From: Candidatus Margulisiibacteriota bacterium
Lineage (GTDB): Bacteria; Margulisbacteria; Riflemargulisbacteria; GWF2-35-9
Length of the DNA: 47,611 nucleotides
Assembly (NCBI GenBank): GCA_028715625.1
Contig: JAQURL010000011.1
Location: 1-47,611 of the forward strand
Reading direction: 5' to 3'
Shown: one piece after another, positions 13,747 through 27,665 of the stretch
Position numbering within the stretch: position 1 is the first letter of the stretch
How the letters are laid out: each line of letters opens with the position of its first letter
Program-made: the position numbers and the translations under genes
The notes under the pieces: model-generated
What the model saw: only the letters and a program-made list of their open reading frames with translations
Told to the model about the DNA's origin: nothing
The model's database searches: none

Positions 13747-15792
13747 TTGCAGGAAAAAATCGATCAGCTAGCTTTAGACGTAAATTTTTTGGACGCCAGT
13801 GATATTCAAACTATCAAATGTGTTCATGATGATCTTGTGGACGTTCGTCGTGATATAGGGTCAAAAAATGAACTTATCGACAAGCTGCTGGCAACTGTTA
13901 TCAATTTTGTCAGTGGAGTGATCGAAGGTAGTATTTCTTTCGAATCGCTTGAAGACAGAGTTTCATCCTTAATTAATATACTGATCCTAAATGAAGGTGA
14001 GTTAACCACAAAAAAGAAAAAAATAGCATTATCTGCTGAACTTGAGAATAATATTCGACAGGTAATTGAAAAATTTACCTTGAATGAAACAGGTATGAGC
14101 AGTATTCGGGAAACTGAAAAAAAGGAAAGTGATCAGAAAGCGAGCGTAGATGACGGCATGGACTTCATTAATGATAAACAGCTGTTTATCGATTTTATTG
14201 TAGAAGCAAGGGATCATTTGGCGGTTATTGAAGAAAGCATTCTGGGCCTGGAGGAAAATCCACATGACAGCGGCAAAATTGACGCGATTTTCAGGGCTTT
14301 TCATACGATTAAAGGTGTAGCCTTATTTTTAAGGCTCAAACAAATCGGGGAACTGGCTCATAAAACCGAAAGTGCTCTGGATAAGGTAAGGAATAAAGTT
14401 GTCCCTTTCAGTTCTCATGTGGCTGATGTTATGTTTAGCGTCCGCGACAAGATTATTTCGATGATGGATGCTTTGGAACAAAACCTCGCCAAAGATTTAT
14501 TGAAAGAAAGCGAATTTGAACTGTTTGATATATTGAACGATGTAGATAATATTTTTAACATAAAAGCTGAGGCTGATAAATCTCCGGAGTCTAAAAGTGA
14601 GGATATTGTTAAAAAGAATGACCATACTTCCAATATTGATAATTCCATAAAAGTTGATTACTTAAAAATAGATCATTTAATAAATTATACCGGGGAATTG
14701 CTTATAGCTCAGTCTTTATTGTGGAATAATAACTATATTCTGGGTAATAATGATCAGAAATTTTTAAATATAATAGAACAAATCAAACGAATATCATCAG
14801 AGCTGCAAAAAATCAGTTTAAGCATGAGGATGGTACCGATTAAACAAACATTTTCCAAAATGCAGCGGATTGTTCGGGACTTGTCACACAAACTGCAAAA
14901 ACAGGTAAAAGTAGTGCTTATCGGTGAGGACACCGAACTGGACAGGTCTCTCATCGAATCTATTAATGATCCGTTGGTACATTTGGTCAGAAACTCAATT
15001 GATCATGGTCTGGAAAACCCGGAGGAGAGGAAAAAATCCGGCAAACCTGAATTCGGGACCATTCACCTTAAAGCTTATCATCAGGGTGGCAGTATTGTAA
15101 TCGAAGTCAGCGACGACGGGAAAGGTCTGAATAAAGAAAGAATTCTGGCCAAAGCCCTTGAAAAAGAGCTGATAAAAGATTCTACCGGTATGAGCGATCA
15201 GTCCATCTGGCAGCTTATTATGGAGCCGGGTTTTTCTACTGCGGAAAATCTAACGGATGTATCCGGCAGGGGTGTGGGTATGGATGTCGTCAAATCTAAT
15301 GTCGACAAACTGCGCGGGCGAGTAGATATTTATTCGAAAAGCGGCGAGGGCACCACCATGACCTTACGTATACCTTTAACGCTGGCGATAATCCTTGGTA
15401 TGATTGTAACCATAGGCGGTGAGTACTATATAATTCCTTTACAAACGATTATGGATATTTTACGGCCTCAACCCGGACAAATTCATTCAGTGGAACATAA
15501 GAATGAGGTGCTGCTGATGAGAGGGGAAACAATCCCTATCATCAGATTATACAAGATGTTAAATATTGAAAATGCCCGGACCAATCCTAATGATGCTCTG
15601 CTGATTGTAGTTGAATTCGAGGGCAAACATAAAGCTCTGATGGTTGATGATATTCTGGGGCAACAGGAAGTTGTAATAAAATCTATTTATGAAAGCCTCA
15701 ATGAAAGAAAGTTTTTCTCAGGTTGTTCTATATTAGGGAATGGTAAAGCAAGCTTAATTTTGAATATGGGAAGATTTTTTTCTCTGGAATAG
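13747..15792 (+). CDS. cheA: chemotaxis histidine kinase CheA
   Basis: I choose TTG at 13747, 7 bases after GGGGGG; an earlier in-frame TTG at 13732 lies at the edge of that site. The first 140 residues are a helical region that is not part of standard CheA. A phosphotransfer domain follows with FRAFHTIKGVALFL (phospho-His 186). Next come the dimerisation helices (SSELQKISLSMRMVPIKQTF), the kinase ATP site (N box HLVRNSIDHGLENPEERKKS, G1 VSDDGKGL, G2 GRGVGMDVVKSNV) and the CheW-like domain. There is no obvious P2 domain to dock CheY/CheB; an acidic linker takes its place. It heads a five-gene chemosensory operon. Confidence 0.95.
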   Translation: MQEKIDQLALDVNFLDASDIQTIKCVHDDLVDVRRDIGSKNELIDKLLATVINFVSGVIEGSISFESLEDRVSSLINILILNEGELTTKKKKIALSAELENNIRQVIEKFTLNETGMSSIRETEKKESDQKASVDDGMDFINDKQLFIDFIVEARDHLAVIEESILGLEENPHDSGKIDAIFRAFHTIKGVALFLRLKQIGELAHKTESALDKVRNKVVPFSSHVADVMFSVRDKIISMMDALEQNLAKDLLKESEFELFDILNDVDNIFNIKAEADKSPESKSEDIVKKNDHTSNIDNSIKVDYLKIDHLINYTGELLIAQSLLWNNNYILGNNDQKFLNIIEQIKRISSELQKISLSMRMVPIKQTFSKMQRIVRDLSHKLQKQVKVVLIGEDTELDRSLIESINDPLVHLVRNSIDHGLENPEERKKSGKPEFGTIHLKAYHQGGSIVIEVSDDGKGLNKERILAKALEKELIKDSTGMSDQSIWQLIMEPGFSTAENLTDVSGRGVGMDVVKSNVDKLRGRVDIYSKSGEGTTMTLRIPLTLAIILGMIVTIGGEYYIIPLQTIMDILRPQPGQIHSVEHKNEVLLMRGETIPIIRLYKMLNIENARTNPNDALLIVVEFEGKHKALMVDDILGQQEVVIKSIYESLNERKFFSGCSILGNGKASLILNMGRFFSLE

Positions 15793-24932: not shown

Positions 24933-25841
24933 ATGTCGATTTTAGACTGGTTTGCCAAAAAGAACGATAATGTTGTCGTAGAGCGCGAAAAGCTTGATAT
25001 CCCCGGTAATTTATGGGTTAAATGTATCTCTTGCGGTGGCGTGTTATATAGTAAAGAACTGGAAGAAAACCTTAAAGTCTGCAATCACTGCGGGCACCAT
25101 TTTCGTCTCACCAGCAAAGAACGTTTGTTTATTACGGTGGATGCCGATTCTTTTGAAGAAATTAATCCCGGCATGGAGCCGGTAAACAGTCTTGGTTTTA
25201 CAGATACAATTTCCTATGATGATCGCATTAAACAGGCCAAAAAGAAGTCCGGTATGAAAGAAGCTGTTATAACCGGCACAGCTAAAATCGAAGGTTATGC
25301 TGTTGCCGTTGGCATTATGGATTTCAGTTATATGGGCGGCAGCATGGGTTCGGTTGTCGGTGAAAAAATAACCCGTCTTATAGAAACAGCAATTGAAAAA
25401 AACCTTCCGGTTATTATTTTTTCAGCATCCGGAGGCGCCAGAATGCAGGAAGGTATTTTATCCCTGATGCAGATGGCCAAGACCTCAGGAGCTCTTTATC
25501 GTCTGAAAGAAAAGGGTTTATTGTATATTTCCGTTATGACCGACCCGACGACCGGTGGTACGACAGCATCTTTTGCCATGCTTGGCGATTTGCATATAAC
25601 CGAGCCCAATGCCTTGATAGGTTTTGCCGGTCCCAGAGTTATAGAACAAACCATCAGACAAAAATTACCCAAAGGGTTCCAGCGCAGTGAATACTTGCTG
25701 GAGCATGGTATGATTGATTACATTTCCCCTAGAAAAGAGCTAAAGAAGTTATTAAAATCTTTATTGGAATTTACGCAGTACAACAAATTAATTGTTGCGG
25801 ATAAAAATGAGAGCAACGAAAAAGCGCAGGATGATGAATAG
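24933..25841 (+). CDS. accD: acetyl-CoA carboxylase carboxyltransferase subunit beta
   Basis: AccD with AccA moves the carboxyl group from biotin to acetyl-CoA, the first step of fatty acid synthesis. The N-terminal zinc ribbon is complete (Cys31, Cys34, Cys50, Cys53, in CISC and CNHC). The crotonase-like core includes [50 protein letters not shown] and [20 protein letters not shown]. Length of 302 residues is normal. It overlaps accA by 8 bases; the two subunits are needed in equal amounts, which fits coupling. The start is leaderless-looking. Confidence 0.97.
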
Positions 25842-26790
25842 AAACTATCTGGATTTTGAAAAACCTATTTTTGAACTGTATAACAAAATTGAGGAGCTGA
25901 AAAAATTGTCCGGCAGCAAAAAAAATATGGATGAAGATATAAAAAAGATAAAAGATAAGGCTGAACAGCTCAGGGACAAGATTTTTACCCATCTTGAGCC
26001 CTATCAGATTGTACAGATTGCACGTCATCCGGACAGGCCTCTCACCTCAGATTATCTGGAAAATGTTTTTACCGATTTTATAGAATTGCATGGTGACAGG
26101 CTTTATGGAGATGACAAAGCCCTGATTGGCGGATTTGCCAAACTGGATAACAGGCCGGTTATGGTTATCGGTCATCAAAAAGGTAAAGACACCAAACAAA
26201 ATATTTATAGAAATTTTGGCATGCCACATCCTGAAGGCTACAGAAAAGCCTTACGTTTGATGAAGCTTGCTGAAAAGTTTTCTTTGCCGGTTGTCGCTTT
26301 GGTCGACGTGCAGGGAGCATATCCTGGGCTGGGTAGTGAAGAAAGAGGCGTAGCCGAAGCTATCGCCAAAAATTTGCAGGAAATGATGGGGCTTAAGGTT
26401 CCGATAATAGTAATCATAACAGGTGAGGGTGGCAGTGGCGGAGCTCTTGGTGTGGCTATCGGCAACAAAGTAGCCATGCTAACATATTCGGTTTATTCGG
26501 TTATCAGCCCGGAAGGGTGTGCGGCAATACTCTGGAGAGACTCATCTATGGCTTCTGTAGCTGCTGAAAACCTTGGCATTACTGCTCCCAAACTTTTGGA
26601 AATAGGTGTAATAGACGAAATTATTGAAGAACCGCAAACAGGGGCGCATAGTGATCCGCAAAAAGTGTATAAAAAAGTCAAAGTTTTTTTGAAAAAAGAA
26701 CTAAAACGATACAGCCAGTATCCGCTTGATAAATTACTGGAAGAACGTTATCAAAAATTCAGAGTGCTGGGGAAATTTACTGAAGCTTAA
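25834..26790 (+). CDS. accA: acetyl-CoA carboxylase carboxyltransferase subunit alpha
   Basis: I start at the second ATG of ATGATG (25834), giving [20 protein letters not shown], the usual AccA beginning and 318 residues. An upstream in-frame start at 25792 would add a basic tail encoded inside accD. Core motifs are [56 protein letters not shown], the oxyanion region [15 protein letters not shown], and [15 protein letters not shown]. It forms the alpha2beta2 carboxyltransferase with AccD. Biotin carboxylase and carrier genes are not in the window. Confidence 0.97.
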
Positions 26791-26815
26791 ATGCTCGTAT
26801 TTTTTATAATGATAC

Positions 26816-26964
26816 TCGACGCAAAATGGAATTGCAGCAAGGAGCCGTGGAGCGAGCTGCGGAGGTGTGCTTATGCACATTGAGAAAGCGAGCGACAAAG
26901 GCAACCCAGGCTATGCCGGAGGCTTCGCCGAGGCGAGCGCAGCCGCAAACCATTTTACTAAGAG
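26816..26964. repeat. interspersed repeat, copy A (149 bp)
   Basis: It starts TCGACGCAAAATGGAATTGC and ends CCGCAAACCATTTTACTAAG plus AG. The same start, end and core recur in copy B at 27393-27510. GCAAAATGG and CCATTTTAC are near-perfect terminal inverted repeats, extended inward by GCAGC/GCCGC. The core GGAGGTGTGC-TTAT-GCACATTGAG forms a small hairpin. Relative to B, copy A has about 33 extra bases (26909 onward) that match the module at 2609-2633. It lies between a TATAAT (26805-26810) and the body of the thioesterase gene. Confidence 0.8.
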
Positions 26965-27349
26965 TATAACTACTCGTGTACGTTATCAGGAAACAGACAA
27001 AGGCAATCGTGTTTATCACGCTCAGTATCTTGTCTGGCTGGACATGGCCAGGACAGAATATTTACGCTCCCATGGTATTGATTATGCCAGGTTTGAGGAA
27101 GAAGGATATTTCCTGGTTGTGAAAAAAGTTGAGGTTGATTATCACTTTCCGGCACAATTTGATGATCTTATTGATATTGTTATTAATAGAATAGAACGGC
27201 AAAAAATCAGGGTTGACTTTTATTATGATATCGTACATAATTCCTCAAAGAAGCTGCTGGCTTCTGCGTATACTCAGTTAGTATGTATAAATAAAAAGGG
27301 TAAGCCGATTAAAATTCCAGAAAAAATGATTTCGATTTTGAGTGATTGA
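26873..27349 (+). CDS. ybgC: acyl-CoA thioesterase, YbgC/4HBT family; start inside repeat A
   Basis: The hotdog-fold family signature RVRYQETDKGNRVYHAQYLV then WLDMARTEYLRSHGID is clear, with the catalytic Asp in ETDK. The domain normally begins within a few residues of the N-terminus. Here about 32 extra residues (MHIEKASDKGNPGYAGGFAE and on) precede it, and all but the last two or so come from repeat A. The only plausible start is ATG 26873, 7 bases after GGAGG, both inside the repeat; GTG 26867 is an alternative. YbgC-type enzymes hydrolyse acyl-CoA or acyl-ACP thioesters. It follows accA, so lipid metabolism is a sensible context. Confidence 0.88.
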   Translation: MHIEKASDKGNPGYAGGFAEASAAANHFTKSITTRVRYQETDKGNRVYHAQYLVWLDMARTEYLRSHGIDYARFEEEGYFLVVKKVEVDYHFPAQFDDLIDIVINRIERQKIRVDFYYDIVHNSSKKLLASAYTQLVCINKKGKPIKIPEKMISILSD

Positions 27350-27392
27350 TTTTATATTCTAGTAGAATAGTTTGCGGAGTTTATGAATGTGT

Positions 27393-27510
27393 TCGACGCA
27401 AAATGGAATTGCGGCGAGACGCCAAGGAGCGAGTCCCGGAGGTGTGCGAATTGCACATTGAGGAGGCGAGCGACGAAGGGCAACAAAGCCGCAGACCATT
27501 TTGCTAAGAG
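27393..27510. repeat. interspersed repeat, copy B (118 bp), ending at tRNA-Leu
   Basis: The ends are TCGACGCAAAATGG and CCATTTTGCTAAGAG. GCAAAATGG (27398-27406) and CCATTTTGC (27496-27504) are perfect 9-bp inverted repeats, extended by GCGGC/GCCGC, so the whole element can fold into one long hairpin. The internal hairpin TGTGC-gaatt-GCACA is the counterpart of TGTGC-ttat-GCACA in copy A. Its last base is directly before the first base of tRNA-Leu, so any tRNA promoter must lie upstream of, or within, the repeat. Confidence 0.8.
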
Positions 27511-27598
27511 GCCGAAGTGGCGGAATTGGTAGACGCGTTGGTCTCAAAAACCAATGGGCTTTTAGTCCATGCCGGTTCGATTCCGGCCTTCGGTACCA
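27511..27598 (+). tRNA. tRNA-Leu (anticodon CAA)
   Basis: This is an 88-nt type II tRNA. Acceptor GCCGAAG pairs with CTTCGGT (one G-U), discriminator A is followed by encoded CCA (27596-27598). The D arm is TGGCGGAATTGGTAGACGCG, the anticodon stem TTGGT/ACCAA has loop CTCAAAA (anticodon 27545-27547), a long variable arm TGGGCTTTTAGTCCA is present, and the T arm contains GGTTCGATTCC. It reads UUG codons. Confidence 0.96.
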
Positions 27599-27644
27599 GT
27601 CTTCGCTTCGCGACGAGCGAAGTGAGGAGCGTTAGCGAAGACTG
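27597..27644. repeat. hairpin repeat fused to the 3' end of tRNA-Leu
   Basis: CAGTCTTCGCT (27597-27607) and AGCGAAGACTG (27634-27644) are perfect 11-bp inverted repeats around a GC-rich loop containing GAGCGAAGTGAGGAGCG. The left arm begins with the last two bases of the tRNA CCA. There is no T-run, so it is not a standard terminator; it resembles the GCGAGCG-type repeat sequence of copies A and B. Confidence 0.7.
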
Positions 27645-27665
27645 TCGCGACGTAGCATTAGCCTG

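Follow-up and report, generated by a model that had tools for sequence, protein, structure and literature searches.

The accA-thioesterase locus

The window, meaning all 47,611 nucleotides analysed, corresponds to contig C11 in the draft genome of an uncultured member of the Margulisbacteria (2.63 Mb, 127 contigs). The gene order is accD, accA, thioesterase, tRNA-Leu, rho. The main features are as follows.

25834-26790, + strand: accA (acetyl-CoA carboxylase carboxyltransferase alpha), the neighbour upstream of the thioesterase; Pfam ACCA at 473 bits, stop codon TAA at 26788-26790
26812-26967, + strand: palindromic repeat element of 156 bp, ATACTC...GAGTAT; genome-wide BLAST and covariance matches, a 15-copy alignment and covarying pairs
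26873-27349, + strand: YbgC/FadM-family acyl-CoA thioesterase, 158 aa; TIGR00051, 4HBT_2, AlphaFold2 and a match to 1s5u
27389-27513, + strand: second member of the repeat family seen at 26812-26967, immediately before tRNA-Leu(caa) at 27511-27598; covariance model at 120.7 bits, ARAGORN

The repeat would encode residues 1-31 of the thioesterase, and residues 32-158 are the old protein. Its nearest named relatives, 62-67% identical, come from Candidatus Margulisbacteria GWF2_35_9 and from Marinamargulisbacteria MAGs. The last 3 bases of the second repeat copy are also the first bases of tRNA-Leu(caa), and the usual GAGTAT end has become GAGGCC there. A copy on contig C27 (L139) likewise adjoins a tRNA-like sequence. 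Directly 3' of tRNA-Leu, at 27603-27650, there is a further GC-rich inverted repeat (cttcgcttcgcgacgagcgaagtgaggagcgttagcgaagac) that appears to belong to a different family.

The palindromic repeat family

The element is bounded by two terminal inverted repeats, both located by pattern search and alignment.

26812-26829, + strand: left terminal inverted repeat, ATACTCGACGCAAAATGG
26950-26967, - strand: right terminal inverted repeat, the reverse complement, ATACTCTTAGTAAAATGG

Copies start with ATACTCGACGCAAAATGG and end with CCATTTT(A/G)CTAAGAGTAT. The repeat named in the original prediction is real and dispersed. BLAST gives 26 matches in the genome, and a covariance model built from 15 aligned copies finds 29 genomic places, 25 of them scoring at least 59 bits. 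The fold has compensatory changes, with 16 of 35 arm pairs changing on both sides. In the true register 93% of cells pair, against 30-45% in slid controls. Among 23 copies analysed only the thioesterase copy lies within a gene, and the rest are intergenic. Two other genomes of the same family (G003 and G004) also carry the repeat, while G028, a distant genome of the phylum, has weak matches only.

Several properties are those of a miniature inverted-repeat element (MITE). The repeat is short (84-157 bp, where MITEs stay under about 400 bp), dispersed in about 25 clear copies, and has no transposase gene. MITEs carry inverted repeats at their termini, in many cases with a terminal TA, and here ATACTCNNNGCAAAATGG or near variants bound most copies on either side. 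As regards a target site duplication, the dinucleotides flanking the copies are mostly AT/AT, but AT also belongs to the inverted ends and the two sides of several copies differ. Filled and empty sites speak for mobility: the site is filled here and the same junction is empty in same-family relatives, which are of different genera rather than strains. A pattern search of the draft genome for a parent transposon with the same ends gave only end pairs at element distance and no IS-sized pair. A REP moved by a RAYT was rejected, as the genome is without a Y1 (RAYT-type) transposase and has no PF01797 match. A known structured RNA was rejected as well, since Rfam gives no match at E<=1. A search for the repeat in phages or plasmids returned none, and in the open-licence literature we found no report of this element family.

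Some copies deserve mention in their own right. An orthologous copy lies upstream of an apparent uvrC in G003 (contig C53, L165 at 1500-1625) and in G004 (contig C169, L178). Its core is conserved between the two species, while the outer arms differ and stay palindromic (AACCTC../..GAGTAT versus ATCAAG../..CTTGAT). This hints that the structure is under selection. Because both genomes have the copy, setting G003 against G004 gives no empty site for it. In the flanks of four copies (L146, L148, L150 and L151) a second small palindrome of the type TAAACCAATTTGGTTTA sits directly outside the ATACTC end. On contig C27 (G000, 14482-14841; L002 and L003) a run of N splits two near-identical copies, which probably reflect duplication during scaffolding.

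Insertion behind the old start codon

The relatives are informative about the ancestral junction. In four Margulisbacteria genomes of the same family (G001-G004) the accA-thioesterase junction has neither the repeat nor the N-terminal extension. In these and in two genomes of the same order (G005 and G006) the thioesterase starts at the accA stop codon or within a few bases of it. The junctions are TAAATG, TAATG, TAAGTGATG and similar, and the N-terminus reads M-F-S-I-T-T-R-V-R-Y or nearly so. Alignments of the best matches in the relatives set in at residue 27-33 of the window thioesterase. A set of 102 homologues spanning several phyla places the nearest start no more than 17 codons ahead of the RxRY motif; in the window gene the distance is 34 codons. 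Examining the locus in relatives without the insertion was the check proposed with the original prediction, and none of the four same-family and two same-order genomes has the extension. On sequence comparison, the repeat at the 5' end of the thioesterase is thus shown to be a derived insertion, because the relatives are without both the repeat and the extension. The gain that had been predicted, about 30 residues, agrees with a net gain of 24-30.

The old start is still there. An ATG at 26791 directly follows the accA stop TAA (26788-26790), as it does in G003 and G004, and a second ATG at 26809 is in the same frame. The old frame now runs into the repeat and ends there.

26791-26883, + strand: relict leader frame of 30 codons, from the old ATG to TGA 26881-26883 inside the repeat; filled- and empty-site translation, start position in relatives

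When 26814-26967 (ACTC...GAGT plus one AT) is removed in silico, the old ATG reads MLVFFIMITTRVRYQETDK... and continues into the domain. The reconstructed protein, MLVFFIMITTRVRYQETDKGNRVYHAQYL..., has 134 residues with the domain in frame, and it retains the isoleucine of ITTR in the conserved ITTRVRY. This reconstruction assumes a 2-bp target duplication that was chosen because it restores the frame; the flanks of other copies fit AT/AT without proving it. The net gain is 154 bp. This is not a multiple of three, so the old starts are now out of frame. The repeat is shown by this comparison to have inserted just behind the old start, which was kept but is out of frame. Because the 154-bp net length displaces the retained start, the insertion is a frameshift, apparently rescued by the repeat's own start.

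The original prediction placed the insertion elsewhere, between a promoter and the original start. That is not supported, since both old ATGs are present with the repeat behind them and no promoter is predicted. The TATAAT it took for a promoter does exist at 26805-26810, but it has no -35 partner and a promoter scan of 26500-27200 predicted nothing. The motif shares bases with the ATG at 26809, and in the reconstructed empty site it belongs to the coding sequence of the old N-terminus. Stop-start junctions in the relatives, such as TAAATG, make a promoter before the thioesterase unexpected in any case. Donation of a promoter by the repeat was rejected on the same grounds, together with the lack of a sigma-70-like site near 26800.

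One can imagine that all of this is an assembly or binning artefact, a repeat copy misjoined into the accA-thioesterase junction. The genome is a draft in 127 contigs, assemblies fail at repeats, and contig C27 holds the duplicated copy beside the N run. However, the window copy is unique: even the best other copies match just part of it, at 86-87%. Both flanking sides agree with the conserved gene order, and the frame returns once the element is taken out. We find a misjoin very hard to credit.

The putative new start inside the repeat

If the old start no longer reads the domain, another one must be sought. The repeat offers the following.

26861-26865, + strand: Shine-Dalgarno sequence GGAGG, supplied by the repeat; sequence and the 16S rRNA tail of this genome
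26864-26881, + strand: apical hairpin GGTGTGC-TTAT-GCACATT holding the start codon; RNA fold, helix 5 of the consensus with compensatory changes
26873-26875, + strand: putative start codon ATG, supplied by the repeat; the sole in-frame start with a well-spaced Shine-Dalgarno sequence

That the Shine-Dalgarno sequence and start lie within the repeat was predicted originally, and GGAGG-7-ATG (26861-26875) is indeed the only usable start. The 16S rRNA of this genome ends in ATCACCTCCTTT, whose CCTCC matches the GGAGG. After the last stop in the domain frame (TGA 26810) the only ATG, GTG or TTG codons are GTG 26867 and ATG 26873. Both are in the repeat, which bears out the claim that no start exists between the repeat and the domain. 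The distance claimed there, about 5 bases, is wrong: the repeat ends with GAGTAT at 26967 and the first T of TTRVRY is ACT at 26969, a gap of 1 base. The ATG was also said to lie in the hairpin loop. Only its A and T lie in that loop, which has 4 bases; the G (26875) is the closing base of the 7-bp stem GGTGTGC/GCACATT. Compared with the L139 copy (loop TTATA, ...GTGTGCTTATAGCACA...), the loop of the window copy is one base shorter, which joins TTAT to the stem G and creates the ATG.

GGAGG occurs at the equivalent place in 7 of 22 copies, and is accompanied by a nearby ATG in three (the window copy, L138 and L140). The L138 copy (1562 onward) stands before a gcvH-like gene and has the same GGAGG-7-ATG, followed by a 27-residue frame and a stop, MAHRGASDKGNKVANHFAKSILRKGSV. 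Such a frame may possibly be a free-standing repeat peptide. Two other copies were considered as start donors and rejected: the likely signal-peptide start of the ORF at L146 and the usual start of the Obg-like ORF at L150 are both downstream of the copy.

A different start could be proposed for the protein: GTG 26867, some non-standard codon close to the domain, or frameshifting from the old leader. GTG 26867 is in frame, and 20 of the 33 long ORFs in the window have no clear Shine-Dalgarno sequence, which suggests that weak starts are tolerated in this organism. However, GTG 26867 is just 1 nt from the GGAGG, and there is no ATG, GTG or TTG from 26875 to the domain. Slippage on the T6 run near 26800 was rejected as a rescue because stops at 26807 (TAA) and 26810 (TGA) block the frame it would lead to. 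A start elsewhere than ATG 26873 therefore seems highly improbable, and we infer that translation starts at 26873.

The state of the thioesterase

The most serious rival is that the insertion killed the gene. The remnant would then be a young pseudogene whose frame is open back into the repeat by chance. The insertion broke the old frame, and some open in-frame start arises by chance in 51.8% of shuffled repeats. When the RNA folds unassisted, GGA of the GGAGG and AU of the AUG stay unpaired, and the final GG of the Shine-Dalgarno sequence and the G of AUG are paired in the 7-bp apical hairpin; such partial pairing suits a dead gene.

The gene itself argues otherwise. Its 127 domain codons have no stop or frameshift, and the catalytic-region residues (YQETDKG..YHAQYLVWLD) are retained. 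dN to relatives in the family is 0.28-0.33, similar to that among the relatives and not raised, with synonymous sites saturated. Chance seldom yields a well-spaced GGAGG-ATG in the frame needed: of 4000 shuffles of the repeat that preserved doublets, 0.7% had GGAGG and a start from which that frame stays open to the end, a figure that is no test of function since a retained gene would be selected for exactly such a start. We regard a pseudogene as improbable, although it is the main rival.

The product is a recognizable enzyme. It scores 89.1 bits against TIGR00051 (YbgC/FadM family acyl-CoA thioesterase; cut-off 68.7) and 62 bits against Pfam 4HBT_2. Its 93.5 bits against the YbgC tol-pal equivalog TIGR02799 fall below the cut-off of 141.35. 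AlphaFold2 gives residues 1-27 a pLDDT below 50 and most of the remainder above 90, in a confident hot-dog fold closest to E. coli YbgC (1s5u). The boundary of the disorder at residue 27 is near the end of the repeat-coded part. No second thioesterase of this kind was found in the genome. A start in the repeat agrees with the intact hot-dog fold and its disordered 27-residue tail, with the matching anti-Shine-Dalgarno sequence and with normal divergence.

A broken gene probably rescued by what broke it

We argue that the probable history is a MITE-like insertion that broke the old frame of a gene which then survived through the GGAGG-7-ATG of the repeat, at the price of about 31 new residues. 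The thioesterase would once have been read through coupling to accA, with a stop codon followed directly by ATG. A MITE-like palindromic element would then have inserted just behind the thioesterase start codon, and its 154-bp net gain should have killed the gene by shifting the frame. The gene would have survived because this copy carries GGAGG-7-ATG, in an apical hairpin, in the open frame of the domain. The added N-terminal residues would be disordered.

The partial pairing of the Shine-Dalgarno sequence and ATG also counts against this history, and here the leader frame may matter. It passes through the Shine-Dalgarno sequence, and its TGA at 26881-26883 overlaps the new ATG by 11 nt. Setting a ribosome on the leader stop in the fold model leaves most of the Shine-Dalgarno sequence and the ATG unpaired. 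Ribosomes leaving the leader frame probably help the new start. Those that end the 30-codon leader at TGA 26881 would open the hairpin or re-initiate, and the old coupling to accA would thus be partly kept. As a reasoned proposal, the geometry of leader and new start would amount to translational coupling by unfolding or reinitiation (PMC12548453). It must be said that Huber et al. take -8 to +10 nt as the predictive range for termination-reinitiation (PMC10666635), and the 11-nt overlap is just outside it.

A bolder idea is that the apex of these repeats is a coupling cassette in itself: some copies have GGAGG there, the hairpin loop can accommodate an ATG, and a TGA commonly follows a few bases later. 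An insertion behind a start codon would then swap stop-start coupling for hairpin-gated coupling through a leader frame. If true, the downstream gene would stay tied to accA expression. We offer this tentatively and consider it rather doubtful.

The apparent rescue by the repeat's own start has wider meaning. It would be a clear case of a selfish palindrome that broke a conserved gene and simultaneously gave it the ribosome binding site and start that apparently keep it alive. It would show a one-step route to new N-termini and leader peptides. There is a warning in it too, since gene-calling programs will label repeat DNA at the 5' end of the thioesterase as part of the protein.

Comparison with known systems

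Rickettsia palindromic elements (RPEs) were reportedly described by Ogata in 2000. The likeness, compared by description, is that of a short palindrome with terminal inverted repeats in a conserved gene. RPEs (105-146 bp) lie inside conserved protein genes and are translated as an extra stretch (PMC2229807, PMC10969869). They keep the host frame and often sit in ORFs, whereas the window repeat breaks the old frame and supplies the start itself. The frequent in-frame gene insertion with a conserved peptide that marks RPEs is not seen here, with 1 of 23 copies in a gene.

Translational coupling by termination-reinitiation or RNA unfolding (PMC10666635, PMC12548453) shares with this locus an upstream frame that ends a few bases from the start, and a Shine-Dalgarno sequence and start partly hidden in a hairpin. 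Those systems favour spacings of -1, -4 and -8, whereas the overlap here is 11 nt and the coupling is proposed from its geometry.

Pneumococcal large BOX elements are a further parallel. There the repeat gives an ORF its start codon, the ORF ends beyond the repeat, and the transcript was found by RT-PCR (PMC3049150). BOX ORFs match no known conserved protein, whereas the downstream part of the window ORF is a conserved enzyme. None of the QMITEs of Coxiella was found to alter the 5' end of a gene whose function is known (PMC5896051), and here a repeat does. In open-licence papers we found no description of a repeat whose insertion shifts the frame of a conserved gene and whose own start then rescues it.

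The element also resembles the bacterial MITEs (ERIC, YPAL/RU-2, Correia and RUP), with which it shares the size range (about 125-156 bp), inverted-repeat ends with TA, a stable hairpin and mostly intergenic dispersal; they differ in that no parent transposase with these ends was found for the window element. Some MITE ORFs fuse to host ORFs, as in YPO1552, whose signal peptide is partly formed by a Yersinia repeat (PMC2229807). Fusions of MITEs and genes are already known; a repeat that donates a start to a conserved gene, at its 5' end, is a rarer form of them.
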